Assembly: GCA_017469925.1 (NCBI GenBank)
Contig: JAFUFK010000023.1
Location: forward strand, 62,001-126,000
Direction: 5' to 3'
DNA length: 64,000 nt
DNA from: Bacteroidaceae bacterium
GTDB taxonomy: Bacteria > Bacteroidota > Bacteroidia > Bacteroidales > Bacteroidaceae
The notes under the pieces are model-generated. The model worked only from the letters and a program-made list of their open reading frames with translations. It was not told the DNA's origin and searched no databases. Positions 3-18,174 of the stretch are shown in pieces. Made by a program: the position numbers and the translations under genes. The stretch's first letter is position 1. Every line of letters starts with the position of its first letter.

Positions 3-938
3 ATGGGCGACGGAACACTGCTTTTCGGTACGGAGCACGGACTCTACACCCTGCAGCCCGACAGCCTGCGGCTGCCCGATGCCTCACTCGTGCCTCAACT
101 AATGGGGCTGCGCATCGCGGGCCGCGAGGGATTCGTAACGGGCACCCAGCGCATCGTCCTGCCGCACGACCAGAACTTCCTCTCGTTCACCCTTTCGACA
201 CTCAACTACGCCTATGCCAGCCATACGCGATATCGCTATCAATTGCAGGGCATCGACCCCGAGCCGACCCTCGTAACAGGCCAGGGCGACCGGTTGGAGT
301 TGGCTTATACGGCCCTTCCGCCCGGGCGTTATGTGCTTGAGGTACAGGCATCTATGCAGGGCGGCGAGTGGGGGCAGCCGATGCGCTTCGAGATTGTCAT
401 CCGACCGCCGTTGTGGCGCACGTGGTGGGCTTACCTGATTTATGTGCTCTTGGCCTTGGGCACCGGCTACTACATCCGCCGGTCGTACCTCGAACGGCGT
501 CAAATGCACCAGCGCATCAACGAACTTTTGCGCGAGAAGGACCTCTTCCTCCAGAACCAACATGCAGAAGAGGAAAGTGAGGAGACGGAGGAAGCACCGA
601 AGGAACAACAGGAGATTTCGCCCGCCGACCGCCGCTTTCTGGAGAAAGCACTGGGCTGTATCGACCGCAACATGGACAATGCCGAGTACACCATCGACGA
701 CTTTGCCAGCGACATGGCCATGGAGCGCTCGACGCTCTATCGCAAGTTGCAGGCCGTCATGGGACAGGGGCCGCTGGAGTTCGTGCGCACGATTCGTCTG
801 AAACGGGCTGCGGAACTCCTGCGCTCGGGTAAGTACAACGTGACGGAGGTGTCGGAACTCGTGGGATTCAACACACCGCGCTATTTCACGAAACATTTCC
901 GCGAAATGTATGGTGTGCGCCCGAGTGAATATCGTTAA
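3..938 (+). CDS. Membrane-anchored AraC-family regulator, C-terminal part (5' end outside window)
   Basis: The reading frame is open to the left edge, so the first ATG is probably internal and the gene partial. What is visible is the end of a periplasmic sensor: a last propeller-like strand (residues 1-30), a Y_Y_Y beta-sandwich (about 45-133), one transmembrane helix (about 138-158), a charged probable coiled coil (160-205), and an AraC-type double helix-turn-helix ending in a PRYFTKHFREMYGVRPSEYR-like signature. Classical hybrid two-component systems place histidine kinase, ATPase and receiver domains between the membrane helix and the AraC domain; here about 60 residues separate them and no kinase motif is present. 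It is therefore probably a one-component transmembrane regulator. It is convergent with the GH31 gene and the two stop codons overlap. Its ligand and targets cannot be read from the sequence. Confidence 0.85.
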   Translation: MGDGTLLFGTEHGLYTLQPDSLRLPDASLVPQLMGLRIAGREGFVTGTQRIVLPHDQNFLSFTLSTLNYAYASHTRYRYQLQGIDPEPTLVTGQGDRLELAYTALPPGRYVLEVQASMQGGEWGQPMRFEIVIRPPLWRTWWAYLIYVLLALGTGYYIRRSYLERRQMHQRINELLREKDLFLQNQHAEEESEETEEAPKEQQEISPADRRFLEKALGCIDRNMDNAEYTIDDFASDMAMERSTLYRKLQAVMGQGPLEFVRTIRLKRAAELLRSGKYNVTEVSELVGFNTPRYFTKHFREMYGVRPSEYR

Positions 939-3469: not shown

Positions 3470-5223
3470 TATTGGAAGCTGATTTTCTTGTTGTTGATGA
3501 TGTGGATGCCTTTCTTCTTAGGCGATACGCGACGTCCCGAGAGGTCATAGGCGACGTTGTTGTCGCTGATGTTGACGTCATTGATTCCGTTGGACTCGAG
3601 CAGTTCGAGGCGGATGTAGTCCATGTCGGGCATCCAGGCCGAAGCATTGCTCAGGGCGATGGTGTTCATGCCAGCCTTCAGGCGGATGTTGACCGACCGT
3701 GTGCCAACCGTACTCCAACCACCAGAGTTCAGGCCTGTGAGGTTCTGCACCCGTTCGCCATTTACCGTGAGTAGGGCAGTACGGCTTTCTCCGGAAATGA
3801 AACCAATGGTCAGCCTGTACAACCCACCGTATTGACTATAGACATTGCGCCACTGCAGGTTGTTGTCGGCACTCTTGCCCAGCCATCCCACCTTGCAACC
3901 GCCCGAGGCATAGTCCACCTCGTCGTAACTGCCACTGGGGAGCGTCTGGTTGTTCGACAACTCCTGATAGGTGCCATTGAAGCCCGTCTCGGCCTCATAA
4001 AGTGTGCGCTCGAGTCGTTGCTCGGCCTCGGCGGTGTAGATGGCTGTGCCGTGGGCGGGGACGGTGACTTCCAGTTTGTCCTCAGCCGTGCCGGCACTGC
4101 GGCGCAGGAAGAGGTTGCGCAACTGAATGGTACCGCCAAGGTCCATGAGCGAGAAATCGACATTGACGGTCTGCTCCTCGTCGGTGGGGTTATAGACGGC
4201 AAAAGCGCGCTTTGGACCGTTCAGCACCTCGACGTCCTTCACCAGTACGTAGCAGCCATTCTCGCGCTGTACGACATAGGCCTGGAGGTGCAGGGGGTCC
4301 TGGTTGAGACTGATGAGGTCGAGGTTCTTCAGCAGATTGAGCGAGGTGGTCTTGATGCTGGTCATGTCGCAACCGATGAGCAGGGGCGACGACATGATAC
4401 ACCACATGCCGAAGTGCGTCTTGTCCTCCTCGGCAGTCATCGAGCGGCCAACCTCCAGCATGTCCATGTCGTTGTAATGTCCGTCGTGGCAATAGGCACT
4501 CAGGTAGAGATTTTCCTGGATAATGCCTTTGACGCTGTTCCATCCGTCGTAGATGTCGCCCGTCGTGCGCCACGAGAAGGCCACATCACTAATCCACGGC
4601 CCAGGGTAGGCCCAGCGGCAGGCATTCATGCGTACGTCGGTACGGCCTGTGTTCTTGATGGCCTGCGCGATGGCGGTATAACGCTCGCGCTCGTCGAGTA
4701 CCAGATGGTCTTCATTGTGATACCACGAGCCACCGCAGAAATCGACCTTGATGAAGTCGAATCCCAGTTCTTTGAAAAAGAAGTCGGCATCCTGCTGGTC
4801 GTGTTCGTAGAGGCCCACGCCCTTTCCGATGGCGTCGCCATTGAACATGCTTCCGCACGTATTACGGCCTGCGTCGCTATAGATTCCCGCTTTTAGGCCT
4901 TTGGCGTGGATGTTATCCACGACGTCCTTTAACCCATTGGGAAAGCGGGTGGGATGGATGAGTAACTGACCCGTCTCGGGGTCGCGGCCTCCGAAGTAGC
5001 CGTCGTCGATGTTGATGTATTGGTAACCCACAGCCTTCAGGCCTTTGGTCACCATGGCCGCAGTCTGCTTGCGGATGAGAGTTTCGTTGATGTTGACGCC
5101 ATAGGTGTTCCACGAACTCCAACCCATCGTCGGGCCCTCGCTGACCTGTGTGTCAGTGTCCTGTGCCGAAGTCGTTGTCAGGCAGTTCAGGAAGCAAAGA
5201 AGTGCAAAAATCTGTTTGCGCAT
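3469..5223 (-). CDS. GH27 alpha-galactosidase with C-terminal carbohydrate-binding and T9SS-like tail
   Basis: A 584-residue secreted GH27 enzyme that releases alpha-1,6-galactose, for example from galactomannan side chains or raffinose-type sugars. The signal peptide is residues 1-20. The barrel begins PTMGWSSWNTYG, the nucleophile is Asp161 in KVDFCGG and the acid/base is probably Asp223 in SWRTTGDI. An antiparallel beta domain (about 310-390) is followed by a CBM35/CBM6-like module (about 400-545). The last 40 residues contain YDLSGRRVSPKKKGIHI, the pattern of type A T9SS sorting tails in Prevotella, which suggests surface export through the machinery encoded at 18.5 kb. It starts 23 bp after the tandem GH43 gene, so it is in the same operon, and it overlaps GH31 by one base. 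Confidence 0.93.
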   Translation of the reverse strand: MRKQIFALLCFLNCLTTTSAQDTDTQVSEGPTMGWSSWNTYGVNINETLIRKQTAAMVTKGLKAVGYQYINIDDGYFGGRDPETGQLLIHPTRFPNGLKDVVDNIHAKGLKAGIYSDAGRNTCGSMFNGDAIGKGVGLYEHDQQDADFFFKELGFDFIKVDFCGGSWYHNEDHLVLDERERYTAIAQAIKNTGRTDVRMNACRWAYPGPWISDVAFSWRTTGDIYDGWNSVKGIIQENLYLSAYCHDGHYNDMDMLEVGRSMTAEEDKTHFGMWCIMSSPLLIGCDMTSIKTTSLNLLKNLDLISLNQDPLHLQAYVVQRENGCYVLVKDVEVLNGPKRAFAVYNPTDEEQTVNVDFSLMDLGGTIQLRNLFLRRSAGTAEDKLEVTVPAHGTAIYTAEAEQRLERTLYEAETGFNGTYQELSNNQTLPSGSYDEVDYASGGCKVGWLGKSADNNLQWRNVYSQYGGLYRLTIGFISGESRTALLTVNGERVQNLTGLNSGGWSTVGTRSVNIRLKAGMNTIALSNASAWMPDMDYIRLELLESNGINDVNISDNNVAYDLSGRRVSPKKKGIHIINNKKISFQ

Positions 5224-5246: not shown

Positions 5247-8024
5247 TTATCGGGAGAATTGCCACCAGTCGAGCCGTACGTCGCCCTTGGCCTGATTGAT
5301 GTTGATGTAGAGGTCGTGCGTACCTGTAGCCAAGCCTTTCGGCAAGTTGAGACGAAATGTCTCGTAGGTCTCGTTGCTGCCTGTCGGAGTCAGGTTGACG
5401 ACGCCCAGCAGGGGACCATTAGGATTATCGAGGTGCAGGCTCACCTGAGCGCAGGCTTCGGTTCCGACGGCTGCCATGAGCGAGAACTGGCGTGCCGCCT
5501 TACGGCCGAAATCAACGCTGCGCAAGCGGATGTATTCGCCGGCATCCAGGTCATAGACGTAGAGATTCTTCCGCCCCGTGCTCTTGGCCATCTGCTCCAC
5601 GACGCTCTGTCCGTGGGCCTGTGCCACCAGCTCGCGCGTGCCCGCTATACCTATTTTCTCTGTGCGCAGCCCATAGCCCCATGCCATGGTCTCGGCCTCT
5701 TGGCGCTGGTAGGGATTCAACGTGCCGACGGGCGCAGGTTCCTGTTGGTCGAGCCAGTAGGGAATCTCTTGGATGGTGCCGTCGGCATTATACTGGATTT
5801 CCGACAGACTCACCGAACGGCGCTCGAAGTGTTCACGTGTCTCGAAGTGCAGCAGGTCGTAGTTCTGCCCAAAAACATAGCTGCGCCCCTTGAAGTCGAT
5901 GATACCGGGATGGTTGCCACGAGTGCGGGGAGTGGGGCGCATGATGTAGCCCTTGCTCTGCCAAGGACCCGTGGGGGCGTCGGCCATGGCATAACCGATG
6001 GCCTCGGGGCAGCAAGTGGATGCGTAGGCCAGATACCAGTGGCCACTGCGCTCGTAGAGCCAAGGTCCTTCCTGATAGTTGTCAATGTGATAGTCGAGGC
6101 GGACGATGTCGCCCTCCGTCGAAATCATGTCTTCGCCCAAGCGCACATAGTAGGTGTGGGGATTACCCCAATACATCCATGCCTGTCCGTCTTTGTCGAT
6201 GAAGACGGTTGGGTCGATGTCGTCCCAGTGTTCACGCTGCCATACCAGCGGATGACCCAACGGATCGTGGAAAGGACCATAAGGCGAGTCTGCTACCAGT
6301 ACACCGATGCCGTGGCCGTGCAAGGGGCAGTAAAGATAGTACTTCCCACTCCGCTCAATGCACTGTACGGCCCAGGCTCCATTGTCGCGGCTGCGCCAGC
6401 TGAAATCGTGAAGCGAGGCCACGGGACCATGGTCGGTCCAGTTGACCATATCGGTTGAGGTGTAGAGCAACCAGTCGTACATGAAGAAGCCTGCCGAACT
6501 CTTCTCACGCGGGTCCATGATTTCGTCGGGATGCGAGTCGTGGCTCACATAGAGGAACACCGTGTCGCCCACCACTATCGGGGCTGGGTCGGCCGTATAA
6601 TGGGTTTGCAGGATGGGTATGTTACGGTCGCCCTTGTCGCTCATCTCCCACCAGTCGAGGTTGAAGAGCCGCGGTCCTTTTCGTCCTTGGAACGAGAGGT
6701 AGAGGTCGTGCTGTCCGGTGGCGATGCGCGGGATCTGCATGCTGAACGTCTTCCACTGTTCCCAACCTTCGGTGCCCGTGATGTCGATTGCGCCCAGGCA
6801 AAGGCCGTGTAGGCTATCGACGTGCAACTCGATGCGCCCACCACGCAGGCCCGATGCGGCACGGACGGTAAATTCTCTGGCGCCACGGTCGCCAAAATCA
6901 ACGTTCTGCAACTTCAGCCAGTCGCCGTTGTGGATATCGCACAGGTAAACGCCAGCCTCGCGGTTCTGGGCTGTGTGCAGTCCTTGTGAGTAGGCCATCG
7001 TCTCAGCCTCCACGCGCCGGTAGGGGTTGAACGTGGCGATGGGGCTCACGCCTTCGCGTGTGGGGCGGATGATGGGCAGCCGGCCGTCGGCTTCGTATTG
7101 GAATTCCTCTACCGCCATGCTGCGACCAAAACCTCCACCGCCGGGCAGATGGCCTGTATGGTAGAAGAAATAACTGTGACCGCGGAAGTCAGCTACTCCG
7201 CAGTGGTTGGTAAACGAGTCGGTGCCGCCCAGTGGCATGACCTCGCCCTCATAGTGCCAGGGCCCCAACGGATTCTCTGCCGATGAGTAGGCAATGTGTT
7301 CGGGCACACCGCCTGCGGCATAAAGTAAGAGCCAGCGGCCTCCGCGCTGCATCAGCCATGGGCCTTCGACGTACGCGTCGCGATACTTCTTGCCTCGTTC
7401 GCGTTCGCGCATTGGGGGCGAACCGAATCCCTCCTCCGTCATATCGAGGAGATGTACCTCGCCCTTAGCATGAATCATATCGTTTTCCAGTTCCAGTGCA
7501 TAAACGCGCGGATTGCCCCACATGAGCCAAGCATGGCCCGACGTCTCGTCAATCCATACGGTCGGGTCGATGTGGTCCCACGAACCATTCTCGAACAATG
7601 GTCGGCCTAGGGCGTCGTGGTAGGGACCCTCGGGCTTGTCGGCTACAGCCACACCGATAGCCATGCCGCCCGAGAGCTTCGAGTGAGCACAAATGTACCA
7701 ATAGAAACGGCCATTCCGTTCGATGCACTGGCTGGCCCATGCGCGGTCGTCGGCCCAAGAGAAACTCTCGAGTGCCAAGGGCGAACCCATGTCCTGCCAG
7801 TTTACCATGTCCTGTGTCCGATAGATGCGCCACTCCTGCATCCAGAAAAAATCAGCCCCGTCCTCGTCATGCCCCGTAAAGACATACATCACCGAGTCGC
7901 CTACCGCGAGTGGGGCAGGGTCGGTGGTGAAGCACGTCTGCACGATGGGGTTCTGCCCCCTTGTCTCTGTCAGGGCCGCCAGCATCAGCGTCAGCCCCAG
8001 TAGTAGTCTCTTCTTCATAGTCAT
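5247..8024 (-). CDS. Tandem GH43-CBM6 / GH43-CBM6 glycosidase
   Basis: A secreted protein of about 925 residues made of two complete GH43 units. I start it at the ATG at 8024 or the one six bases on at 8018 (MKKRLLLGL signal peptide), because a promoter lies at 8045-8075 and the open frame upstream is non-coding. Numbered from 8018, unit 1 has its five-bladed propeller at about 25-325 (general base Asp33 in TTDPAP, DHIDPTVW, acid Glu in VEGPW) and a CBM6-like module at about 333-459. Unit 2 repeats the plan (TADPAP, DDIDPTVF, QEGPW) with its CBM6-like module at about 770-923. All catalytic carboxylates are present in both units. GH43 enzymes act on arabinofuranosyl or xylosyl linkages, so the protein may cut two bonds of one polymer. 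It is first gene of the operon with GH27 and GH31. Confidence 0.92.
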   Translation of the reverse strand: MTMKKRLLLGLTLMLAALTETRGQNPIVQTCFTTDPAPLAVGDSVMYVFTGHDEDGADFFWMQEWRIYRTQDMVNWQDMGSPLALESFSWADDRAWASQCIERNGRFYWYICAHSKLSGGMAIGVAVADKPEGPYHDALGRPLFENGSWDHIDPTVWIDETSGHAWLMWGNPRVYALELENDMIHAKGEVHLLDMTEEGFGSPPMRERERGKKYRDAYVEGPWLMQRGGRWLLLYAAGGVPEHIAYSSAENPLGPWHYEGEVMPLGGTDSFTNHCGVADFRGHSYFFYHTGHLPGGGGFGRSMAVEEFQYEADGRLPIIRPTREGVSPIATFNPYRRVEAETMAYSQGLHTAQNREAGVYLCDIHNGDWLKLQNVDFGDRGAREFTVRAASGLRGGRIELHVDSLHGLCLGAIDITGTEGWEQWKTFSMQIPRIATGQHDLYLSFQGRKGPRLFNLDWWEMSDKGDRNIPILQTHYTADPAPIVVGDTVFLYVSHDSHPDEIMDPREKSSAGFFMYDWLLYTSTDMVNWTDHGPVASLHDFSWRSRDNGAWAVQCIERSGKYYLYCPLHGHGIGVLVADSPYGPFHDPLGHPLVWQREHWDDIDPTVFIDKDGQAWMYWGNPHTYYVRLGEDMISTEGDIVRLDYHIDNYQEGPWLYERSGHWYLAYASTCCPEAIGYAMADAPTGPWQSKGYIMRPTPRTRGNHPGIIDFKGRSYVFGQNYDLLHFETREHFERRSVSLSEIQYNADGTIQEIPYWLDQQEPAPVGTLNPYQRQEAETMAWGYGLRTEKIGIAGTRELVAQAHGQSVVEQMAKSTGRKNLYVYDLDAGEYIRLRSVDFGRKAARQFSLMAAVGTEACAQVSLHLDNPNGPLLGVVNLTPTGSNETYETFRLNLPKGLATGTHDLYININQAKGDVRLDWWQFSR

Positions 8025-8044: not shown

Positions 8045-8075
8045 CAAAAGTACGAAAAAACCTAGGTATTCCCAA
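8045..8075 (-). promoter_or_regulatory. Bacteroidetes promoter of the GH43-GH27-GH31 operon
   Basis: Read on the minus strand, TACTTTTG (8052-8045) matches the -7 consensus TAnnTTTG, and TTG (8075-8073) lies 20 bp upstream as a -33 element. Transcription should start near 8040, leaving a leader of about 20 nt before the ATG at 8024 or 8018. Confidence 0.75.
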
Positions 8076-8083
8076 CCTTATAG

Positions 8084-8112
8084 GTCCCAAAGACTTACAT
8101 TCTCGTCTCATT
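8084..8112 (-). promoter_or_regulatory. Putative operator, copy 1 (two GTYYCA half-sites 21 bp apart)
   Basis: On the plus strand GTCCCAAAGACTT, 8 bp, GTCTCATT. The half-sites GTCCCA (8084) and GTCTCA (8105) are direct repeats 21 bp apart, about two helical turns, as expected for an AraC-type dimer. The box begins 32 bp beyond the edge of the -7 element and abuts the -33 region. The same box at the same distance occurs at 15488-15516 and 18146-18174. Confidence 0.7.
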
Positions 8113-8184
8113 AAAGTGTAAGCGATTGGCGTGGGACATTTAAGGGTGGCAAAATGTATCGCAAGTGATACAAATCGGGAAGCC

Positions 8185-11100
8185 CTAATCGTCCCCGTTT
8201 TCTTGTGCGGCGAAGTCGCGCGGAGCCACGCCAAAGTGTTTGCGGAAGACGGTGGAGAAGTAACCGAGATTCGAGAATCCGACGGTGTAGGCCACCTGAG
8301 TGATGTTGAGTTTCTGCTCGCGCAGCAGACGGGCGGCCTGCTCAAGTCGGATGTTGCGCACGAACTCGGTGACGGGCAAGCCGGTCATTTCCTTCATCTT
8401 GCGGTGGAGATGGGCACGGCTGATGCCAGCCTCGGAGCAGAGTTGCTCAACGCCAAAGTCGCTGTCAGCCAAATGGCGGTTGATGCTTTGCATGATGCGA
8501 TCCATCAAGGCCTCGTCGTTGCCACGCTGCTCGGGTACTTCGACACGTCCTACGGCCTCTTGCTGTACGCCGGAGTATCGGCCACGTAGTCGCTGGCGCT
8601 GGGCTATGAGGTTGCGCAGGGTGGCCAGCAGTTCAGTGGTGGTGAAAGGCTTTGCCAGATAGGCATCCGCTCCACGCTCCAGACCCTCGAGGCGGCTGCC
8701 GACGTCGGTCTTCGAGGTGAGCATGACGACGGGCAGATGGGCTATGCGCGGGTTGGTCTTGATGAGGCGCAGGAGGGTGAATCCGTCCATTTGTGGCATC
8801 ATGACGTCGGAAACGACAGCAGCGTAGGTACCCTCTTCGGCCGTAAGTAGTTGTTGCAGCGCTTGTCGTCCGTCGGGGGCGGTGCGGCAGCGGTAATGGG
8901 GGGCAAGTTGCGAAGCCACGTAGGCCGACAATTCAGTGTCGTCATCAACGAGCAGGATGACCCCCTTGCTTGTCGTAGCAGGTCGCGTCTCACTTTGACT
9001 CGGGCCCCCGGGTAATGGCTCGGCGACGAGGGAGGAAAGACCTGTCGAAAGCGGCAGTTCAACGATGAACTGACTACCGCTGACGCCGTCGTTGCGGTTC
9101 TGGGCGGTAATGGTGCCCTGGTGCATATCGACAATCATGCGGCAGAGATGCAGTCCGATGCCAGTGCCTGCGGATGTAGTGCCCTGATAGAAGCGGTCGA
9201 AGATGTGACCAATGGCCGTAGGCGAGATACCTGTTCCACTATCGGTGACGCTGAACTTGACGTGTTGTTCGTCGGTCGAGAGCTGAAGGGTGATTTCGCC
9301 TCCGTCTGGGGTGAACTTGAATGCGTTCGAAAGTAGGTTGGCTACCACCTTCTCTATCTGCTGCGGATCTACTTCGGCGTGGATGGGGCCGTCGGGATGG
9401 AGGAAACGGAAGTGTATGTTGTGTTCCTGTGCTGCAAAATCGTGCATGTGGCAGATGGCGACAATGAGGGCCGTCAGGTCGGTATCGACGGGATGAATCT
9501 GCATCTGTTGGCGGTCAATCTTACGCACGTCGAGTATCTGGTTGACGAGGGTCAGAATGCGCTGGGCATTGCGGTGGATGATATCGAGGTCGTTCTTGTC
9601 GGTGACATCTGTGGCGCGTTCTTTCAACTTCTCGAGGGGCGAGAGAATGAGGGTGAGTGGCGAACGGATGTCGTGGGTGGCATTGATGAGGAACTGCATC
9701 TTGTCTTCCTCGAACTGGCGACGCATGCGACGGCGGTAGGCTACGGATACAAGAGCCAACAGCGCGAGCACTGCAAGGGCGTAGAGCCAGTAGGCAAAGG
9801 TGGAACGCCACCAGGGCGGGCGCACCGTAATGACAAAGGTACGTACCGGAGTGTAGTTGCCTGCCTGTAAGGCGCGTACCCTAAGGCGGTAGTGGCCAGG
9901 GGCAAGGTGATTGAAGTCGATGGTGTTTTGTCCTCGTGGCGTCGATTGCCAGCGCGGTTCGTCAATGAGTTTATATTCGAAGACCACATCGGCAGCATCG
10001 GCAAAGTCTAGGAGTGAGAACTGGAGCTGGAAACTGGCATCGACGTAACTGAGCGATATTTCGTCACACTGGTCGAGGGGGTGCTTCATTACCAGTTGCC
10101 CATTACTCATAGTAAGTGTATTAGCCTGTTGCCCGGCAATGATGAGGCCGGTCAGGTGAACTGTGGCGCTAAGTGGGTGTGACTGGCGCAGGCTGTCAGG
10201 ATTGAAGAGGGCGATGCCGTCGGCTGTGCCAAGGAGTACGTATCCGTCGGTTGTATGAAGTCCTGCACCGACTACGAACTCGCGGGCCTTCAGCCCATTT
10301 GTGCCTACGTAGGCCGTGATGGTCTTTCGGTCGGGTATCCAGTGCCAGATACCTTCGTTAGTGCTTATCCAGAGGTCGCCATGGTTGTCTTCCGTAATAT
10401 AGCTGAAGGAATGGCCACGCAAAGGCTCTGTGCCTTCTTCGGGGTGAAGTCCCTCCTTGGCTGACCATCGTTGCAGTCCGCGTTCGGAACCCAACAGCAC
10501 ATCGCCGTTGCGCAGGGCACACAGGGCGGTGCAGGATTCGCGGTCGGCCAGTATGCGCCATCCGTTAGAGGCAAAGGAGTTTGTGCGTGGGTCATAGCAA
10601 CTGACGCCCGATGAAGTGGCAATCCACAGGCGACCACTGCGGTCGGCATCCAGAGCATAAATCCAGTCGTTGGCCAATCGGCCCCTATGCAAGGTGTCGG
10701 TATCGTACATGGTGAATCGCCGGAGTACGTTTCCAGTCTGTTTATCGATGATACTAAGACCTGCGCCATAGGTGGAGACGGCCAATTGTCCATTGGGCAT
10801 GTCGGCAAACGCATTGATGCGGTCGCCGACAAGTTGGGCCGCAAGGGTGGCTTGCCCATTGCTCGGATTATAACGCCAGACGGCATCGGTGGTGCCCAAC
10901 CAAAAGCGGCCCTCACCATCGCGGAAGAGAGTCTCGACGCCATGCGGGGCATTGGGGTGGGAGACGATGCGCCCCTCGGCATTGAATCCATACACCCCGT
11001 CTCCAGGAATCGTACACCATATCAGCGAGTCGTTGCCTTGGGCAATAGAGGATACGAAGGTGCCCGTCTCCTGTCCCTGGGCGGCGAAGCTCCAACTCTG

Positions 11101-12057
11101 GAACATCGGGTTCCGATGGAGGGGAATCAGGAGTACACCCTTTTGCTGACAGCCCACCCATAGGTTGCCTTGGGGGTCGAAGTAAACGAATGCTATACGG
11201 GCCCGGTTGAGATCGACACCGCTTACGAGTGCCGTGAAGCGCTGCATCTTCTGTTCACCCTTTGGCATCCAGTAGAGACCATCTCCGCGCGTACCTATAT
11301 AGACATTCCCTTCGGAGTCAGTGGCTGAACAAGTGAAATACGAGACCGGTGTCATCTGTAACTGGAAGGGAGATTGATGTCCCAGTTGGATGAACCCGTG
11401 CGGACAGAGGGCATAGACGTTACCTTCGTGTTCGAAAAAGTCGGTGGCCGCTCCGTATGGCGAATGATAGGTACTAATGGTGCCGTCGGCATGCCGACAG
11501 GTCAGTTGGCTATTGGCCCCGCTCTTCCAGATACAACCATCGGACGCTTGGAAAAGATGGTTGAAGTAAGAGTTGTCGTCCTCGGGGGCATAGCCGTCGA
11601 GGAGGGTAGCCTGAAGGTGATCCGCGTCGATTTCGTATAGGCCATAACCAGCCGTTCCAGCTAAAAGCCGGCCGTCGGTCAGCTGTAAGAGGCTGCTGAT
11701 GCGTGGTTCCCAATTGTTTGGGAACACCACGGGGTGGTAGGCTCCAGTGGCTTTGTCGTGGAGGAATAGCCCGCGTGATGTGCCTACCCATAGGCGGCCA
11801 TCCTTGGTCGAAAGCAGGGAAGACACATCGATGGCACGGAAATCGTCGGTCAGCGTGGTGCGCGAGGTGAAGTGGTAACCGTCGAAGCGGTTGAGGCCAT
11901 GTTCCGTACCAACCCAAAGCAGGCCGTCGGCATCCTGCTCGATGGTGGTTACCATGGAACTGGACAGACGGTCTGCTGCGAAGAACTGGCAGTTTTGGGC
12001 AGCGAGTGTTGTGCTTGCCAGTAAGGTTACGAATAGTACAAACTTCCGAAACATCAC
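8185..12057 (-). CDS. Hybrid two-component system sensor kinase/AraC response regulator (HTCS)
   Basis: A 1290-residue one-protein signalling system. A signal peptide (1-20) is followed by a periplasmic sensor of two seven-bladed propellers (about 25-650) and a Y_Y_Y domain (about 665-735). One membrane helix (about 742-762) leads to HisKA with phospho-acceptor His795 in NATHDIRSP, a HATPase domain (to about 1000), a receiver with Asp1083 in VVSDVMMPQMDG, and an AraC DNA-binding domain (about 1185-1290). Family knowledge: HTCSs bind oligosaccharides in the periplasm and activate neighbouring polysaccharide-degradation genes. It lies between the GH43 and GH5-GH43 genes and has its own promoter, which lacks the box found at the enzyme promoters. 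It is the best candidate to bind that box. Either ATG at 12057 or 12054 could be the start. Confidence 0.95.
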   Translation of the reverse strand: MMFRKFVLFVTLLASTTLAAQNCQFFAADRLSSSMVTTIEQDADGLLWVGTEHGLNRFDGYHFTSRTTLTDDFRAIDVSSLLSTKDGRLWVGTSRGLFLHDKATGAYHPVVFPNNWEPRISSLLQLTDGRLLAGTAGYGLYEIDADHLQATLLDGYAPEDDNSYFNHLFQASDGCIWKSGANSQLTCRHADGTISTYHSPYGAATDFFEHEGNVYALCPHGFIQLGHQSPFQLQMTPVSYFTCSATDSEGNVYIGTRGDGLYWMPKGEQKMQRFTALVSGVDLNRARIAFVYFDPQGNLWVGCQQKGVLLIPLHRNPMFQSWSFAAQGQETGTFVSSIAQGNDSLIWCTIPGDGVYGFNAEGRIVSHPNAPHGVETLFRDGEGRFWLGTTDAVWRYNPSNGQATLAAQLVGDRINAFADMPNGQLAVSTYGAGLSIIDKQTGNVLRRFTMYDTDTLHRGRLANDWIYALDADRSGRLWIATSSGVSCYDPRTNSFASNGWRILADRESCTALCALRNGDVLLGSERGLQRWSAKEGLHPEEGTEPLRGHSFSYITEDNHGDLWISTNEGIWHWIPDRKTITAYVGTNGLKAREFVVGAGLHTTDGYVLLGTADGIALFNPDSLRQSHPLSATVHLTGLIIAGQQANTLTMSNGQLVMKHPLDQCDEISLSYVDASFQLQFSLLDFADAADVVFEYKLIDEPRWQSTPRGQNTIDFNHLAPGHYRLRVRALQAGNYTPVRTFVITVRPPWWRSTFAYWLYALAVLALLALVSVAYRRRMRRQFEEDKMQFLINATHDIRSPLTLILSPLEKLKERATDVTDKNDLDIIHRNAQRILTLVNQILDVRKIDRQQMQIHPVDTDLTALIVAICHMHDFAAQEHNIHFRFLHPDGPIHAEVDPQQIEKVVANLLSNAFKFTPDGGEITLQLSTDEQHVKFSVTDSGTGISPTAIGHIFDRFYQGTTSAGTGIGLHLCRMIVDMHQGTITAQNRNDGVSGSQFIVELPLSTGLSSLVAEPLPGGPSQSETRPATTSKGVILLVDDDTELSAYVASQLAPHYRCRTAPDGRQALQQLLTAEEGTYAAVVSDVMMPQMDGFTLLRLIKTNPRIAHLPVVMLTSKTDVGSRLEGLERGADAYLAKPFTTTELLATLRNLIAQRQRLRGRYSGVQQEAVGRVEVPEQRGNDEALMDRIMQSINRHLADSDFGVEQLCSEAGISRAHLHRKMKEMTGLPVTEFVRNIRLEQAARLLREQKLNITQVAYTVGFSNLGYFSTVFRKHFGVAPRDFAAQENGDD

Positions 12058-12073
12058 AAGGATATTAGTATAG

Positions 12074-12103
12074 CAAAGTTAATACTTTTCGTTGGAAAAA
12101 CAA
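12074..12103 (-). promoter_or_regulatory. Promoter of the HTCS gene
   Basis: The minus strand reads TTG (12103-12101), exactly 19 bp, then TAACTTTG (12081-12074), a full match to the Bacteroidetes consensus. The leader is about 10-15 nt. No GTYYCA direct repeat sits upstream, so expression is probably independent of the neighbouring enzyme regulon. Confidence 0.75.
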
Positions 12104-12120
12104 ACATTTCTCTCGTTAAA

Positions 12121-15100
12121 TTAGCGAACGAGCACTTTTCGTGTGCGGTTATTGCCGTTGCTCAGGTACTCGCGGACGAGGATGATGCGACCACGTTGCG
12201 GAGTTTCTACCTTGCGTCCGTCGGGCGTGAAGTACTCGGTGCGCAGTATGGTGGCACGGTCGGCGTCGGCCGACTGGATGGCGTCCTCGCTCGTCACGGT
12301 TACGGCCAATTTGGCCACGCGAGTCGTCCCCTTGTCGTCGGTGAAGGTGGCCGTGAGGGTGGCCTTACCGATGGCCTTGCCCACGACCTCACCGTCCTCG
12401 AAGGTGGCTACGGCGGGCTTATTGCTCTTCACGGTCACGAGTTCGGTCACGTCTCGATGATAACCAGTCTTGCCGATGGCGAAGAAGTTGACGGGCTTGC
12501 GTACGCCAGGCTGTGTTGTTATGCTGGCAGGATCAGAAACGAGGTCGGTCATCTCCAGGTCCTCGGGTGACAGCATGTCGAGGGTGCCGGGAGCGTAGTA
12601 GAGTTCCTCGGAGAACTCGCCGGGTTCGGTAGAGAACCAGTCGATATCAACGTAGCCACCGTTCTGTTTCGTGGCATAGTTGAAGAGGTAGAAGCGTTGA
12701 CCGACAAAAATCTTCAGCGTATAGCGCATGTTCAGGTCGGTGCCGAAGTGTGTCCAAGTCTTGTTGTCCAGACTATAGTAGAAGCGGGCAATCTTGGTGC
12801 CATAGTTCACGATGGTACGCAGGTAGATGGTATCGGCATCGATAACGTCGCCCAGTGTCTCCTCCGTTTGATACACATCGTCCTGGTTCGTGGACCAGTT
12901 GTGCTCGGAATATTCGCTGCGACGGGAGTAGAGACGACGCTCGCCGTCCTCCATCTTCACACCAATCAAGGCATAGGGATCTTGGAATACGGCCAAGCCA
13001 GCCACGTCGCCGTCTATCATGCCGCCGATGGCCATCTTCACGGTCCCGTAGCTATCAACCACTTTATTGGATGCTACGTTGGCTGCCGAGTATCCCAGGA
13101 TGCGCTGTGTCAGAGAGTTGCGGGCCTGCATCAGGTCTTCGGCAATGCCTGTGGTCTTCAGTCGGAGCCAACCATGATACATACTCCATGCCTCGTCGTC
13201 GGGATTGTGGTTCCAAGCCCACTGCATGCCGAAGCGCTGACCTGCGAAAGGTTCGTTGGTGGGCAAGTAGGTCTTGGGCCATGTGGTGCCTACGTTGGGC
13301 TTGCGATAGCCACGGCTGTTTGCCGAAACGTCCTTGCCGTTGTTGCCGATGATGGGCCAGTCTTCCTGCCAGGTGACGGGCTCCAGATAAGGAATGCGGC
13401 CGATGGCTCCGGCATCGCGGAAGAGTATGGTCCACCACTCGCCGGTCTGTGTCTCCACGAGTCCGCCCTGATGGATGCTCTGTTTCTCGAATACGCGTCC
13501 GTCGTGCTCCTCATAGGGCCCGAAGGGCGATGTAGCGCGGAAGATGGTCTGCGAACCTTCGGTGCCGCCGTAGGTGGCGTAGATGTAGTAATAGTTGCCG
13601 ATATGGTACATGTGCGAGCCTTCGAGACCATTGCCATTCTCGCTGACAACGACGTCCTTCAGCGACTTGAAGTCCTTGTTCGGGTCAACCTGTGATACCG
13701 TGATACGGTCGATGCCATGAGCCACATAGACATTCCCGTCGTCGTCGAACAGGAAACCTGAGTCGTAATAGAATCCATCAATCTTTTTTATGCTCCACGT
13801 CCCTTCCGGGTCGGAAGTGGTCAGCATGAAGTCGCCTCCGTCGTCACCAAAAGAGATGAAGTTGAGGTAGAACTTTCCCTTGTAGTACTTCAGACTGGGC
13901 GCCCACTGACCGCCGGCATAGTGGTTCTTTCCGTTCTTCAGGTTGAAGGCGTCGCTGTCGGCAATCTTCTCAAGCGGGTTGCAGCAGTATTCCCAGTTCA
14001 CGAGGTCGCGGCTCTTGAAGATGGTCACGCCGGGGAAGTGGAACATCGTCGTTGTGGCCAGGTAGTACCAGTCTTCGACGCGGATGATGTCGGGGTCGGG
14101 ACCGTCACCGTTGATGATGGGGTTGATAAACTGCCCGTTGCCTTGGTCGGCCGTCCACTGACGGGTAAACTCGGGTCGGGGCTGTTTCTCCTTGGCCCAT
14201 TCGGCGTACCAGTCGAAGCAGGCTTTGGCACAAGCTTCCGGTTCGCCACCGTAGGAGGGAACCACCGTCTTGTAGTTCGAATTGGCATAGGTGTCCCAGT
14301 CGAAGTAGCAGTGCGAGCCGGAGAGGGTCATGGAGATGTTGCCAAAGTAGTCGTGCAGTTTCTTGTAGCAGATGCCCCACTTCGATGTTGACCCCGTTGA
14401 CCACGTACCCATGTTGGGCTGTACCCACTGGCCGTGTTCGTTATAGTGGCCTTCCTTGGTGGGGTCTTCGGGGCTCCAGTCAATCTCGGTGATGACGATG
14501 GGGTTGGTATCAACTACGGGTACGGCCTCGTGGAACTGGCGGATAAGGTCGTCGGGGTCGGCATGCGAGTCGCTGCAACCATACCATCCCGTGTAGTCGT
14601 GGACGGCGTAGCCGATGTTGTAGCCTGTGATGGGGTACTTGGCATAACTGCGGTAGTTGCTCTGCCAGCCGGTGCCGGGAATCCAGATGATGCCGGTGAA
14701 GCCGTTCTCGCGAATCTTATCGACGATGGGCTGGAAGTAGTCATGCAGGGCCTTGTCGCTGCTATTGCCATTCTCGTCCTTCAGGTTCACAGGCTCGTTG
14801 GCCAGTTCGAGGCTGAGCCAGCCTGCGGCGGCACGGACATTGGCATTGCGCGAGACAATGTCCCAGACCTCCATCAGATACTGCTGATAGTAGTCGCCCA
14901 CCTTCAGGTTGCCAGGGCAGACGCCTGGCGGGCGCATGATGACGTACATGCCGTGGTTCATGGCGCGGCGTGCGATGGGGTAGTAGAGCGAGTTGAGGTA
15001 CTTGCTCAGGCGTGTGGGGTTGAAGTGTTTGATGTCGGCCTCGCCACTTGCATCTGATGGCTGGGCCGTAGCCGGTTCATAGGTGTAGTTGTTGTCGTTG

Positions 15101-15414
15101 GTCCAGCAGCAATCCAGATGCAGGCGGAACAGGTTGCAGTAGGCACCCTGTGCGGTGTCGGTGGCAGCCTTGAAGATGCGGTCGAAGTAGGTGATACAGC
15201 TGCTTACCGTGTTGTCGTTGCAGGCGTTGCCCCAGCGGTTTTGGTTGAAGTAGGGGCTGGGGGTGTCCATGAAACCGTGCAGGACGACGGGATTGTTGTG
15301 CGTATCGACCAGTTGGTTACCCTGTACGCGGATGGGGGTAATGGTGCCGAACTGAGCCTTCGCCGCAAAGGGCAGGCAGCAGATGGCGGCCAGAAGTAAT
15401 AGTTGTCTTTTCAT
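12121..15414 (-). CDS. GH5-GH43 fusion glycosidase with Ig-like domain and T9SS-like tail
   Basis: A 1097-residue secreted two-enzyme protein. The signal peptide is 1-20. A GH5 barrel spans about 25-415, with acid/base Glu207 in ELANEPVN and nucleophile Glu310 in IVITEIDW. A GH43 propeller follows at about 430-720 (base Asp440 in GDGPDPDI), with the beta-sandwich seen after the propeller in GH43 beta-xylosidases (about 725-940). A Big_2-like Ig domain lies at about 955-1040. The last 50 residues (EYFTPDGRKVETPQRG and a basic end) resemble a type A T9SS sorting tail. An endo-acting GH5 joined to an exo-acting GH43 suggests attack on backbone and side groups of one substrate, perhaps arabinoxylan; the GH5 subfamily and substrate are not determined. 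It has its own promoter with the shared operator at 15488-15516. Confidence 0.92.
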   Translation of the reverse strand: MKRQLLLLAAICCLPFAAKAQFGTITPIRVQGNQLVDTHNNPVVLHGFMDTPSPYFNQNRWGNACNDNTVSSCITYFDRIFKAATDTAQGAYCNLFRLHLDCCWTNDNNYTYEPATAQPSDASGEADIKHFNPTRLSKYLNSLYYPIARRAMNHGMYVIMRPPGVCPGNLKVGDYYQQYLMEVWDIVSRNANVRAAAGWLSLELANEPVNLKDENGNSSDKALHDYFQPIVDKIRENGFTGIIWIPGTGWQSNYRSYAKYPITGYNIGYAVHDYTGWYGCSDSHADPDDLIRQFHEAVPVVDTNPIVITEIDWSPEDPTKEGHYNEHGQWVQPNMGTWSTGSTSKWGICYKKLHDYFGNISMTLSGSHCYFDWDTYANSNYKTVVPSYGGEPEACAKACFDWYAEWAKEKQPRPEFTRQWTADQGNGQFINPIINGDGPDPDIIRVEDWYYLATTTMFHFPGVTIFKSRDLVNWEYCCNPLEKIADSDAFNLKNGKNHYAGGQWAPSLKYYKGKFYLNFISFGDDGGDFMLTTSDPEGTWSIKKIDGFYYDSGFLFDDDGNVYVAHGIDRITVSQVDPNKDFKSLKDVVVSENGNGLEGSHMYHIGNYYYIYATYGGTEGSQTIFRATSPFGPYEEHDGRVFEKQSIHQGGLVETQTGEWWTILFRDAGAIGRIPYLEPVTWQEDWPIIGNNGKDVSANSRGYRKPNVGTTWPKTYLPTNEPFAGQRFGMQWAWNHNPDDEAWSMYHGWLRLKTTGIAEDLMQARNSLTQRILGYSAANVASNKVVDSYGTVKMAIGGMIDGDVAGLAVFQDPYALIGVKMEDGERRLYSRRSEYSEHNWSTNQDDVYQTEETLGDVIDADTIYLRTIVNYGTKIARFYYSLDNKTWTHFGTDLNMRYTLKIFVGQRFYLFNYATKQNGGYVDIDWFSTEPGEFSEELYYAPGTLDMLSPEDLEMTDLVSDPASITTQPGVRKPVNFFAIGKTGYHRDVTELVTVKSNKPAVATFEDGEVVGKAIGKATLTATFTDDKGTTRVAKLAVTVTSEDAIQSADADRATILRTEYFTPDGRKVETPQRGRIILVREYLSNGNNRTRKVLVR

Positions 15415-15448
15415 CTCGTTTGGTTAGTTTTGATTCGTTTCGACGAGG

Positions 15449-15456
15449 CAAAGTTA
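15449..15456 (-). promoter_or_regulatory. -7 element of the GH5-GH43 gene
   Basis: The minus strand reads TAACTTTG, 35 bp before the start codon. No TTG is found at the -33 position, which fits an activator-dependent promoter using the box at 15488-15516. Confidence 0.6.
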
Positions 15457-15487
15457 CTCACACATGCGCGAACGCCTGTACATACAT

Positions 15488-15516
15488 GTTTCAAATATTT
15501 ACACGATTGTCTCACA
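15488..15516 (-). promoter_or_regulatory. Putative operator, copy 3
   Basis: On the plus strand GTTTCAAATATTT, 8 bp, GTCTCACA. It matches 15 of the 21 fixed positions of copy 1, keeps the 21-bp half-site spacing (15488 and 15509), and starts exactly 32 bp beyond the edge of the -7 element. Confidence 0.6.
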
Positions 15517-15593
15517 AAGAAAAAGAACCGCCGAAACTCACGTTCAGGCGATTCCCCAAAAACCAACTAATATTAACTTAACTAACAAATATG

Positions 15594-16559
15594 TCATTTC
15601 AGGTGTAGGCTGCCGTCGGCCTCATAGACCAGTTCGGCAACCTTGATGCTTCGCAGCCACGTGCGTCCGCCGGAGGGCACGCTGTCGTGGTGGAAGAGGA
15701 ACCATCGTCCGCGCCACTCCACGATGCTGTGGTGGGTGGTCCAGCCGACGACCGGTTGCAGCAGTTCGCCGCGGAAGCGGAAGGGCCCATAGGGCGACGT
15801 GCTGGTGGCATAGCAGAGCAGATGGCTGTCGCCCGTGGAGTAGGAGAAGTAGTAGATGCCGTTGCGCTTGTGCATCCACGATGCTTCGAAGAAGCGATGC
15901 GGGTCGTCGGCACGCAGGGGGTTGCCCTCGTCGTCGGTAATTACGACGGGCCGGGGCTCTTCGGCAAACTGCAGTGTGGCCATGTCCATCTTGGCCACGC
16001 GGGCAGGCAGGGCGGGCTCGCTGCCTTCGGGCAGGTGGGCCTTTTCCAGTGCGCGATTGTCGTGGTAGCGCTGCAACTGGCCGCCCCACAGGCCACCGAA
16101 GTAGATGTAAACCTCGTGGTCGTCGTCCTTGAAGGCACAGGGGTCGATGCTATAGCTGCCGCGGATGGGGTCGGGCAGGGGCAGGAACGGTCCTTCGGGG
16201 CGCTCGGCTACGGCCACGCCCAGGTGGAAGGTGTCGTTCTTGTCCTTCAGACTATAGATGAGGTAGTACTGTCCGTCGTACTCTACCACGTCGTTGTCCC
16301 ATAGTTGCCGGCCGGCCCAGGGGATGTCTTCGACGTCCAGTATCTTGCCCAGGTCGGTGGCCTCTGGCTGGTCGGGGGCGTCGAGTCGTAGCACGTGATA
16401 GTCGCGCATGTCGAAGTGGTCGCCGTTGTCGTTCTCGGGAATGCCACTCTCGCGGTCGTGCGAGGGATAGATATAGAGGTGGTCGCCAAAGACGTGGGCC
16501 GAGGGGTCGGCCATGTAGCCACTGGGGAAGAGGTAGCGTGCTTTGTTCTGTTCTGTCAT
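15594..16559 (-). CDS. Cytoplasmic GH43 glycosidase (beta-xylosidase/arabinofuranosidase type)
   Basis: A 321-residue single-domain GH43 enzyme without a signal peptide (starts MTEQNKARYLFPSGYMADPS), so it should act in the cytoplasm. The propeller carries the base Asp in MADPSAHV, the pKa-modulating Asp in SIDPCAF and the acid Glu in FFEASWMH. It begins 40 bp after the GPH symporter gene and is almost certainly co-transcribed with it. The pair makes sense as import followed by hydrolysis of short xylo- or arabino-oligosaccharides to monosaccharides. Length and lack of accessory modules fit the compact intracellular GH43 group. Exact specificity is not determined. Confidence 0.92.
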   Translation of the reverse strand: MTEQNKARYLFPSGYMADPSAHVFGDHLYIYPSHDRESGIPENDNGDHFDMRDYHVLRLDAPDQPEATDLGKILDVEDIPWAGRQLWDNDVVEYDGQYYLIYSLKDKNDTFHLGVAVAERPEGPFLPLPDPIRGSYSIDPCAFKDDDHEVYIYFGGLWGGQLQRYHDNRALEKAHLPEGSEPALPARVAKMDMATLQFAEEPRPVVITDDEGNPLRADDPHRFFEASWMHKRNGIYYFSYSTGDSHLLCYATSTSPYGPFRFRGELLQPVVGWTTHHSIVEWRGRWFLFHHDSVPSGGRTWLRSIKVAELVYEADGSLHLK

Positions 16560-16599
16560 GGTTCAAAAAGTTTCAATTTTGCGCGGTTTCATCGAAGAT

Positions 16600-18078
16600 T
16601 TATGCTTGTTGCAGGGTGCGGCGGTGGGCCAGTTCGGCCTGCATGCGCTCGTTATACGATTTGCTGATGGGGTAGAAGAGCAGTGCCACGACGCCGATGG
16701 CGAAGAGCAGTGCCGGTACGAGGCTCGAGACGAGCCGGATGCCCTCTATTGCCGATGTGCTCTGTACGAGACCTGCGCCCGATGCGTAGCCAAAGGCCGA
16801 GAGGATAAGTCCGGCAAACGCGCCGCCCAGGCCAAGGCCAGCCTTCAGGGCGAAGACGACGCCCGAGAAGCAGAAGCCCGTGGCGCGGCGGTAGTTGACG
16901 TACTCGATGTGGTCGGCCACGTCGCCAATCATGGCCCAGAGCAAGGGCACCGTGGGGGCGTAGGCCAGCGACTTGAGGATGCACAGGACGAACATCGAGG
17001 ACACGTCGGCGGGCTCGGGCAGCCAGAACATGGCCGTGAAGATGGCCGTCAGCGAGAGGCATACGATGAACGTAGCCTTCTTTCCGAAGCGGTTGGCCAG
17101 GAAGTTGGAGAGCAGCACTACGCCGGCAAACTGTACCAGGGCCCCTACCATGTTGAATAGCGAGAATCCGATGGCATAGGCGTCGGCCTCGCTCTGGGCG
17201 ATGAGGTTGAAGGTGCGCAGTACGGCCGAGCCGCCTCCGTCGGGGCGTACGAGGCCCCATTCGTTGAGGAACTCGTAGAGTGCGCGCTGATCGACGTAGT
17301 TCTGGAAGTAGAAGCTCATGGCCGAGCCCCACATGGCCAGGGTGATGAAGACGAAGAGCGTCAGTACGAACATCGAGCGCCAGGGCACGTTGCTCAGGAG
17401 TTCCTGTACGTCCTTGCGTATGTTCATCTCCTGCTGTGGCGGGGGCGCGATGCGCTCGCGGGCCGACAGGAAGGTGATGATGAAGCAGACCATGCAGATG
17501 GCGGCGTAGAGGCCGATGGTGCAGAGCCATCCGTGGCCTTCGTCGCCGTGTCCGAACTTCGACACGAGGGGCAGTGTCAGGCCCTGTACTACGAACTGGG
17601 CGATGGTGCTGCCGACGAAGCGGATGCTGGTGATGCTGGTGCGCTCGCGGATGTCGCCCGTCATGACACCGCCCAGGGCGGAGTAGGGGGTATTGTTGAA
17701 GCTGTACATCGTCATCAGCAACACGTACGACAGGGTGGCGTAGAGGGCTACGAGGCTCTTGTTCTCGATGCCGGGATTCCAGAAGGCCAGCACGTAGAAG
17801 ACGCAGAAGGGCAGTGCGGTCCACAACACCCAGGGACGATACTTGCCCCAGCGGGTCTGTGTGCGGTCGGTCAGGATGCCGACGGCGGGGTCAACAAAGG
17901 CATCGACGATGCGGGCAATGAGCAGCACCGAACCGGCCACGGCTCCGTCCAGCCCGAAGATGTCGGTATAGAACTTCAGCTGGAAAATCATCATCATCTG
18001 GAACACCAGATTGGCGGCCACGTCGCCCATCGAGTAGCCCACCTTTTCGCTAAATCTCACTTTTCCGCTCTGTGTCAT
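16600..18078 (-). CDS. GPH-family sugar:cation symporter (MFS superfamily)
   Basis: A 492-residue integral membrane protein with about 12 hydrophobic helices. The N-terminus KVGYSMGDVAANLVFQMMM and the segment VDAFVDPAVGILTDRTQTRWGKYRPW are typical of the glycoside-pentoside-hexuronide family (MelB, XylP, YicJ types), which couple sugar uptake to H+ or Na+. It is first gene of a two-gene operon with the cytoplasmic GH43, so the likely cargo is a short xyloside or arabinoside. The start is the ATG at 18076-18078, 29 bp after the -7 element. Its promoter carries the box shared with the two secreted-enzyme promoters, which ties uptake to extracellular degradation. Substrate is inferred from context only. 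Confidence 0.92.
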   Translation of the reverse strand: MTQSGKVRFSEKVGYSMGDVAANLVFQMMMIFQLKFYTDIFGLDGAVAGSVLLIARIVDAFVDPAVGILTDRTQTRWGKYRPWVLWTALPFCVFYVLAFWNPGIENKSLVALYATLSYVLLMTMYSFNNTPYSALGGVMTGDIRERTSITSIRFVGSTIAQFVVQGLTLPLVSKFGHGDEGHGWLCTIGLYAAICMVCFIITFLSARERIAPPPQQEMNIRKDVQELLSNVPWRSMFVLTLFVFITLAMWGSAMSFYFQNYVDQRALYEFLNEWGLVRPDGGGSAVLRTFNLIAQSEADAYAIGFSLFNMVGALVQFAGVVLLSNFLANRFGKKATFIVCLSLTAIFTAMFWLPEPADVSSMFVLCILKSLAYAPTVPLLWAMIGDVADHIEYVNYRRATGFCFSGVVFALKAGLGLGGAFAGLILSAFGYASGAGLVQSTSAIEGIRLVSSLVPALLFAIGVVALLFYPISKSYNERMQAELAHRRTLQQA

Positions 18079-18106
18079 TTTGGCGTCGTTTTTACGTTTT
18101 CTGCTG

Positions 18107-18114
18107 CAAAGATA
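18107..18114 (-). promoter_or_regulatory. -7 element of the symporter-GH43 operon
   Basis: The minus strand reads TATCTTTG, 28 bp before the start codon. There is no TTG at the expected -33 position, as at the GH5-GH43 promoter, and the shared box lies just upstream. Confidence 0.6.
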
Positions 18115-18145
18115 CCCCTTTTCTTCGAAACCTCCTTACCCACTT

Positions 18146-18174
18146 GTCCCAAAGACTTGTTTTTTTGTCTCATT
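18146..18174 (-). promoter_or_regulatory. Putative operator, copy 2
   Basis: On the plus strand GTCCCAAAGACTT, 8 bp, GTCTCATT: all 21 fixed positions are identical to copy 1 although the 8-bp spacer and flanks differ. It starts exactly 32 bp beyond the edge of the -7 element, as in the other two copies. Confidence 0.7.

Follow-up and report, generated by a model that had tools for sequence, protein, structure and literature searches.

At the araBAD promoter of Escherichia coli, AraC, a soluble ligand-binding regulator, recognises two direct half-sites that are 21 bp apart and adjoin the upstream element of a sigma-70 promoter. In Bacteroides, the operators of hybrid two-component systems (HTCS) are likewise direct repeats, with 21 bp on average between tandem sites, and polysaccharide genes adjoin the regulator gene (Ravcheev et al., 2013; PMC3878776). 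The DNA-binding domain (DBD) of these HTCS is reported to be held inactive by the receiver via S/CHIP-DK contacts until phosphorylation; the motif is found at 84–98% per position in Bacteroides HTCS, and BT4236, with Gln at the H-box, is possibly phosphorylation-independent (Gao, Wu and Stock, 2024; PMC11253607). SusR-like regulators, which are structurally unrelated to HTCS, have 67 or 77 bp between their tandem sites (PMC3878776; PMC6874557). Transmembrane transcription regulators possibly evolved from two-component systems, an example being Neisseria Rsp, a chimera of a PilS sensor and a PilR DBD (PMC10269533). Here we analyse a 64,000-nucleotide stretch of a Bacteroidaceae genome (the window, G000:C1:62001-126000, where G000 denotes its genome; other genomes and loci carry Gxxx and Lxxx labels), in which three copies of one box lie at hemicellulase promoters around a single HTCS gene, and we describe relatives of this HTCS that seem to have lost kinase and receiver and yet appear to read the same operator.

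Three boxes and their predicted genome-wide regulon

The box, GTYYCAAAKAYTT-N8-GTCTCA (TGAGAC-N8-AARTMTTTGRRAC on the - strand, which is the promoter sense), is present three times in the window by pattern scan (Table 1). In all three copies the half-sites are 21 bp apart, which is the direct repeat of about 21 bp seen in HTCS operators, and the distance to TAnnTTTG on the - strand is exactly 31 nt. TAnnTTTG acts as the -7 promoter element in Bacteroidota. The common geometry at three hemicellulase promoters, with its 21-bp half-site distance, is therefore real as the original prediction had it, although several of the details given there needed correction: the box is 27 bp long with 19 fixed positions and not 29 bp with 21 (the end coordinates had been 2 too large), and the identical pair is formed by copies 1 and 3 (19/19 fixed positions), not 1 and 2, with copy 2 agreeing at 15/19. 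The step to TAnnTTTG is fixed, as had been claimed, at a value of 31 rather than 32 nt. Two of the three promoters do lack a -33 TTG, since copy 1 alone has a TTG in its spacer, situated 20 nt ahead of the -7 element, and the upstream region of the HTCS gene itself contains, as predicted, no box within the window, with a -7-like TAACTTTG present. For this reason the HTCS promoter was dropped as a further place for the box; a half-like one is present there in L018.

Three window matches at ≤3 mismatches compare with a mean of 0.11 over 100 shuffles, a post hoc control inasmuch as the pattern was derived from these same copies, so that the scan of the whole genome is the fairer test. With the same mismatch limit, 12 matches were found in G000, as compared with 3 when the pattern was reversed as a control. 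An exact TAnnTTTG follows seven of the 12 within the 20–44 nt searched, with all 6/6 fixed bases at 7/7 sites, five of them at 31 nt and two at 32 nt; the nine matches beyond the window copies contribute four of these (two at 31 nt and two at 32 nt). The other five matches have no TAnnTTTG at 20–44 nt, and C6:121739 (L007/L016; upstream of a GH2 gene), with only 2 mismatches, was dropped as an eighth site for this reason. Chance matching as an explanation of the box was dropped in view of the shuffles, the genome scan with its reversed control and the free-spacing search described below.

The genome-wide scan proposed with the original prediction did bring out further promoters of carbohydrate-active enzymes, before esterase–GH10 and GH95–GH98 genes. 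We take GH95 and GH98 to be linked to glucuronoarabinoxylan. Together, GH10, GH43, GH95 and GH98 point to decorated xylan as the probable target substrate, and the predicted G000 regulon is of xylan type and comprises at least seven sites. By annotation, a SusC/SusD gene is the first gene at 0/7 of these sites, in a genome with 11 SusD_RagB matches.

The window HTCS and conservation of its boxes

By domain content the regulator encoded between these genes is a complete HTCS, with Reg_prop, HisKA, HATPase_c, Response_reg and HTH_18 all matched, and its phospho-acceptor motifs are present (H-box ATHDIRSPLT, receiver VSDVMMP, and KPF). In place of the S/CHIP part of the S/CHIP-DK contact motif, the receiver loop (8185-8967, - strand) reads AHLP, while the D and K places are filled; these were located from the 39-residue distance that separates them and not by alignment to BT4124. 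The AHLP loop is common to G000, G001, G025 and G037, with SHLP in G182. A structure model of the receiver–AraC part reached pLDDT 91.7 and pTM 0.55, and with this pTM the placement of the receiver against the AraC domain is not fixed; the model would fit a loose receiver–AraC contact, without being proof of it.

We compared the locus within a sample of 139 genomes of the same genus, G000 included. HTCS 64–65% identical to the window's are found in three of them. In G001, G025 and G037 the orthologous symporter gene has a box upstream of it with a -7 element at 31 nt, and the same arrangement stands before the orthologous GH5-GH43 gene in G025 and before the orthologous gene of a 1212-aa protein in G025 and G037, where the box overlaps the last HTCS codons. 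The earlier claim of a single operator recognised by the HTCS encoded in between is supported, as predicted binding, by this conservation at orthologs, by the extra xylan-type sites and by the co-occurrence of box and AraC domain over the 139 genomes (below), and the boxes are thus well supported, from sequence comparison, as the operator of the window HTCS. Taken by itself, this operator is of an ordinary HTCS type. We infer that the HTCS binds and activates the window promoters, and that these are activator-dependent.

The 80 best of 585 HTCS relatives in named genomes (top identity 43%) showed few recognisable boxes at the threshold used. Beside distant HTCS (L070:2420, L075:11574, L018:9913 and L090:14572) there are, with no control run, weak sites resembling the box that have a complete or nearly complete TAnnTTTG at 31 nt, hinting that the 31-nt step may be older than the genus.

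A kinase-less form of the regulator

A search for the AraC domain of the window HTCS in the 139 genomes returned 32 genomes at E 1e-38 or better, and 31 carry the domain at ≥68% identity, one copy each. These 31 we call domain carriers, paralogs at 50–52% (in G180, and a second copy in G001) being excluded. The HTCS form, with a receiver upstream, is found in five of them (G000, G001, G025, G037, and G182 with an interrupted frame). The regulator of the other 26 has no receiver and consists of a sensor, one hydrophobic segment, a linker of ~60 residues and the AraC domain; we refer to it as kinase-less. Its sensors are 44–54% identical to the window's (15 listed) and its AraC domains 68–91%. 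The frames are 820–993 aa long in 24/26, the shorter ones in G041 and G066 adjoining contig ends, and the G156 copy contains an in-frame TGA. The D and K contact positions of the HTCS are kept in all 26 proteins, where, with no receiver to contact, they may have another role or may have had too little time to change. No genome showed both forms together, the genomes being mostly incomplete drafts.

Judged by their predicted domains, the regulators of these 26 relatives are not HTCS, since kinase and receiver, by which the class is defined, are missing, and they fit the description of a transmembrane transcription regulator, with a sensor, a putative membrane segment, a DNA-binding domain and no two-component core. 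We also infer the membrane topology, the ligand and the phosphorylation-free signalling of this form. An order-wide sample of 393 genomes, in which at most 8 candidates per genome were scored, gave at least 29 matches outside G000 at E ≤1e-30, 26 of these in frames of 1285–1411 aa; as to the three shorter ones, a receiver was seen in G216 and G431, and the third is G420.

The window also contains the C-terminus (3-938, + strand) of a second AraC-type regulator without a kinase, which together with L013:16162-18001 amounts to 925 aa (Reg_prop, Y_Y_Y, HTH_18). It has no H-box remnant and apparently represents a separate one-component lineage.

The junction in the kinase-less proteins

The beginning of the kinase-less linker (EKLHFLMSAINTQDTPLT and similar) aligns gap-free to the HTCS H-box stretch DKMQFLINATHDIRSPLT, and the place of the phospho-acceptor His is occupied by Asn in 19 of the 26 proteins, by Gln in 2 and by His in 5 (G045, G057, G068, G076 and G186). 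For the continuation of the linker, LDDMKRAINSFVQSRKRQRG or similar, the best ungapped match is the last receiver helix, alpha5, with one residue between it and KPF, in 6/8 HTCS (TTELLATLRNLIAQRQRLRG for G000 and MDELHTVINNLINKNLRLRG for L018), the exceptions on this side being G001 and G145, with a higher score elsewhere. On the H-box side of the junction the best match is the H-box in 8/8 HTCS. In the structure model of the window's receiver–AraC part a helix begins at residue 110, which is the first residue of the alpha5 match, and in the alignment both breakpoints fall at P-L-T / P-F-x codons. The junction looks like the scar of an in-frame deletion, by which the H-box part was apparently joined to receiver helix alpha5.

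Predicted operators in the kinase-less species

A free-spacing search, in which a looser box was combined with a -7 element at any spacing of 16–46 nt in the 139 genomes, gave 46 matches in 33 genomes versus 4 matches for the reversed pattern. The spacing is 31 or 32 nt in 41 of the 46 (14/14 matches in HTCS genomes, 19/21 in kinase-less ones and 8/11 in the rest), and in 30/35 when G000, G025 and G037, the source genomes of our sequence model that have matches, are set aside. Counted by genome, a match at 31/32 nt is found in 4/5 HTCS genomes, 17/26 kinase-less genomes and 8/108 of the rest (Fisher test for kinase-less versus rest, p 1.3e-9, with genomes treated here and in the next comparison as independent, their kinship being ignored). 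The sequence model, R1, which was built from 13 sites of four genomes with an intact HTCS, has a median best E of 6.9e-5 in the 26 kinase-less genomes versus 0.014 in the 108 others (p 2.9e-10), and E 1e-3 or better is reached by 20/26 versus 11/108, with G003 and G180 from among the 108 reaching 1e-5.

Which genes stand behind these sites? Seventeen loci were read of the 19 kinase-less matches at 31/32 nt, two matches in G179 being left out, and at 13 of the 17 the site is followed by a homolog of one of the G000 target genes: GH10 in five, GH43-CBM6 in five, the symporter in two and GH27 in one, with its ATG 339 nt downstream. At the remaining four, the next genes in G015, G076 and G152 are non-target genes (presumably carbohydrate-kinase-like, GH127-like and oxidoreductase-like, respectively), and no open reading frame was found in G066. 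The near half-site of the 19 kinase-less sites prefers GAGAC at positions that the pattern had left free.

Weighing the readings

From these comparisons we hold it quite probable that the boxes are the operator of a xylan/arabinoxylan HTCS, that an in-frame deletion gave rise to the kinase-less derivative, and that this derivative most likely shares the operator, with unchanged spacing and before overlapping sets of genes. A further-reaching version is fairly likely: within the genus, an HTCS would have been converted to a one-component membrane AraC regulator by one kind of in-frame deletion, from H-box to alpha5, with both forms reading the same operator at 31 nt, kinase and receiver being dispensable there and one clade maybe having regained the cassette, as the free tree described below would have it. 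A number of results weigh against this picture. When a stricter box was scanned without the -7 element in 150 genomes (G000 and 149 relatives), it was not enriched outside G000, with 13 exact matches versus 13 for the reversed control in the 149 relatives, so that the signal stood out only in combination with the -7 element; a -7 element stands at 31/32 nt from only six of these 13, each of which belongs to a domain-carrying genome. Nine kinase-less genomes have no match at 31/32 nt, G028 among them having a one-base-deviating site at 31 nt before the symporter and G002 a site at 30 nt before the regulator. Eight genomes without the domain do have such matches, three of them sharing one promoter, so other HTCS probably use the 31/32-nt step too. 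The genus genomes are 57–100% complete, which makes absences soft. A single-gene tree of UvrB (28/32 genomes with a match) interleaves the two types, grouping HTCS genomes with G045, G057, G068 and G186, which makes transfer or differential loss likely. Finally, in our careful regulator tree, calculated from sensor and AraC domain with the kinase and receiver columns removed and six rows dropped (three short ones and three outgroups), the unconstrained topology places the HTCS clade within the kinase-less forms, next to the G166 group (98/91), a result unexpected under a single deletion.

These results bear on three other explanations. The eight non-domain genomes, in which G016, G180 and G193 share one promoter (before a GH2-like gene in G016 and G180), and the weak sites with a -7 element at 31 nt beside distant HTCS in L018, L070, L075 and L090 (no control run) would suit a box that is a general feature of HTCS promoters in the genus, read by several HTCS paralogs; we think this unlikely in view of the concentration in domain genomes (17/26 and 4/5 versus 8/108), of targets that look like one substrate type, and of the listed G000 scores, which leave the range from E 2.8e-10 to 0.0075 without an eighth match (the seven being training sites). 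It is less likely still that the kinase-less genes are decayed and non-functional and that another regulator reads the operators there. Although kinase and receiver are lost, the phospho-acceptor His is replaced in 21/26 (Asn 19, Gln 2) and the G156 frame carries its TGA, the reading frame has survived at 820–993 aa in 24/26 genomes while the sensors drifted to 44–54% identity to the window's (15 listed), the AraC domains are still 68–91% identical, the D and K contact positions persist in 26/26, box and spacing are retained in 17 genomes, and no second domain copy was found in the kinase-less genomes. More weight, though well short of an even chance, goes to the idea that the common ancestor in the genus lacked the kinase and that the HTCS clade, of five species, regained a kinase–receiver cassette from a paralog, or that deletion struck repeatedly at the same place. 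The nesting of HTCS within kinase-less forms (98/91 and 93/89), the sequence PEQRGNDE before the AraC domain that is common to the five HTCS and 4/6 members of the G166 group, and the one junction common to the kinase-less forms speak for it, whereas a single kinase-less clade is compatible with the data (lnL, that is log-likelihood, difference 12.7, p-AU 0.094), and HTCS of other genera and families have an identical or almost identical H-box, FLINATHDIRSPLT. The kinase–receiver tree of 26 HTCS (7/33 rows were left out by a motif filter) gives the HTCS clade a long stem and contains no donor of its kinase cassette. One deletion, several deletions, and a deletion followed by regain of the cassette are all possible histories, and the view of the HTCS as the older state rests on the scar, as read from the alignment, and on the outgroups.

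Proposed mechanism

At the operator, two AraC-type domains would bind the two TGRGAC half-sites, two helical turns apart, with 31 (sometimes 32) nt between the end of the nearer half-site and the -7 element downstream of it, a position from which the AraC domains could touch RNA polymerase. This contact would replace the missing -33 contact, much like that of AraC at araBAD. In the kinase-less lineage an in-frame deletion would have removed the stretch from H-box to alpha5 and left a sensor, a membrane segment, a short linker and the AraC domain. How would the sugar signal reach the DNA then? As this form has no phosphorelay, the signal must cross the membrane directly to the DNA-binding domain: we propose that ligand closes the periplasmic dimer, that the membrane and linker helices shift in response, and that this shift may bring the two AraC domains to a spacing matching the 21-bp repeat.

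Features of the locus

The features of the window and the additional G000 sites are collected in Table 1.

Table 1. Predicted operators, -7 elements and genes; positions refer to the window, or to a G000 contig where one is named.
Feature	Position	Strand	Description
Operator 1	8084..8110	-	TGAGAC-N15-TGGGAC on the - strand; before GH43-CBM6, GH27 and GH31 genes
-7 element of operator 1	8045..8052	-	TACTTTTG, 31 nt from operator 1
Operator 2	15488..15514	-	before GH5-GH43 fusion gene
-7 element of operator 2	15449..15456	-	TAACTTTG, 31 nt from operator 2
Operator 3	18146..18172	-	before GPH-type symporter and GH43 genes
-7 element of operator 3	18107..18114	-	TATCTTTG, 31 nt from operator 3
GH31 gene	935..3469	-	third in the operator 1 row
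Melibiase_2 (GH27-type) gene	3469..5223	-	with CBM35-like domain; behind the GH43 gene
GH43-CBM6 gene	5247..8021	-	first in the operator 1 row; encodes CBM6 along with two GH43 stretches
Hybrid two-component regulator, 1290 aa	8185..12057	-	Reg_prop sensor, hydrophobic segment, HisKA (H-box FLINATHDIRSPLTL), HATPase_c, receiver, AraC (HTH_18)
GH5-GH43 gene	12121..15414	-	fusion of GH5 (Cellulase), GH43 and GH43_C2; behind operator 2
GH43 gene	15594..16559	-	second gene behind operator 3
Symporter gene	16600..18078	-	glycoside-pentoside-hexuronide (GPH) symporter; first gene behind operator 3
Additional site	C20:44927		before SASA-type esterase gene, then GH10/BD-FAE/esterase gene
Additional site	C20:338702		before GH95 and GH98
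Additional site	C1:54433		before 1212-aa protein, no Pfam/NCBIfam match
Additional site	C6:293440		before 684-aa protein, no Pfam/NCBIfam match

The 1212-aa protein (L013:6685-10323, - strand; no Pfam/NCBIfam match) recurs beside the regulator of both types in several genomes, and a gene 74% identical to the 684-aa gene (L017:4313-6367, - strand) lies beside the kinase-less regulator of G087. About 12–15 kb before the window, L013:2642-5539 (- strand) encodes a protein of 965 aa that has FG-GAP repeats and matches type I dockerin. A repeat, GTTAAYWTAACYT, occurs with a 23-bp period at window positions 18256-18339 and 48971-49052, apparently between genes in both places, and has 86 paired matches (≤2 mismatches) genome-wide in G000 versus 0 for the reversed pattern.

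Comparison with known systems

The direct repeat of ~21 bp as an HTCS operator is already known (PMC3878776), and a link from two-component to transmembrane one-component regulators has been suggested (PMC10269533). In a literature search of partial coverage we found no description of a kinase-less HTCS derivative that keeps the operator. If our reading is true, kinase and receiver would be dispensable for glycan-controlled transcription in this lineage. The kinase-less orthologs would then provide a natural experiment on the role of the HTCS relay, with the same sensor, DNA-binding domain and operator, with and without the phosphorelay, and a concrete, scarred candidate for the two-component to one-component step raised in PMC10269533. 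Their layout could also serve as a simple design for short glycan-responsive regulators.

As far as the available text of the cited papers describes those systems, the window regulon resembles the HTCS regulons of Bacteroides in its AraC-type HTCS, its 21-bp direct repeat and its adjacent polysaccharide genes, and adds to them the fixed 31-nt step and the kinase-less orthologs (PMC3878776). With the Bacteroides HTCS in which the receiver inhibits the DBD, the window HTCS has in common the domain order and the filled D and K places; it differs by AHLP in place of S/CHIP, and its relatives by the loss of receiver and kinase (PMC11253607). SusR-like regulators are similar to the kinase-less form in combining a membrane sensor with a DNA-binding domain, no phosphorelay being described for them in the portions of the papers at hand (PMC3878776; PMC6874557). 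Like the transmembrane transcription regulators, the kinase-less form is, by sequence, a one-component, membrane-bound DNA-binding protein, whereas in our case one genus displays an apparent deletion scar together with intact HTCS sisters and an operator common to both forms (PMC10269533). What the system has in common with E. coli AraC at araBAD is the arrangement of two direct half-sites 21 bp apart; the difference is that AraC is a soluble regulator and acts at a sigma-70 promoter.

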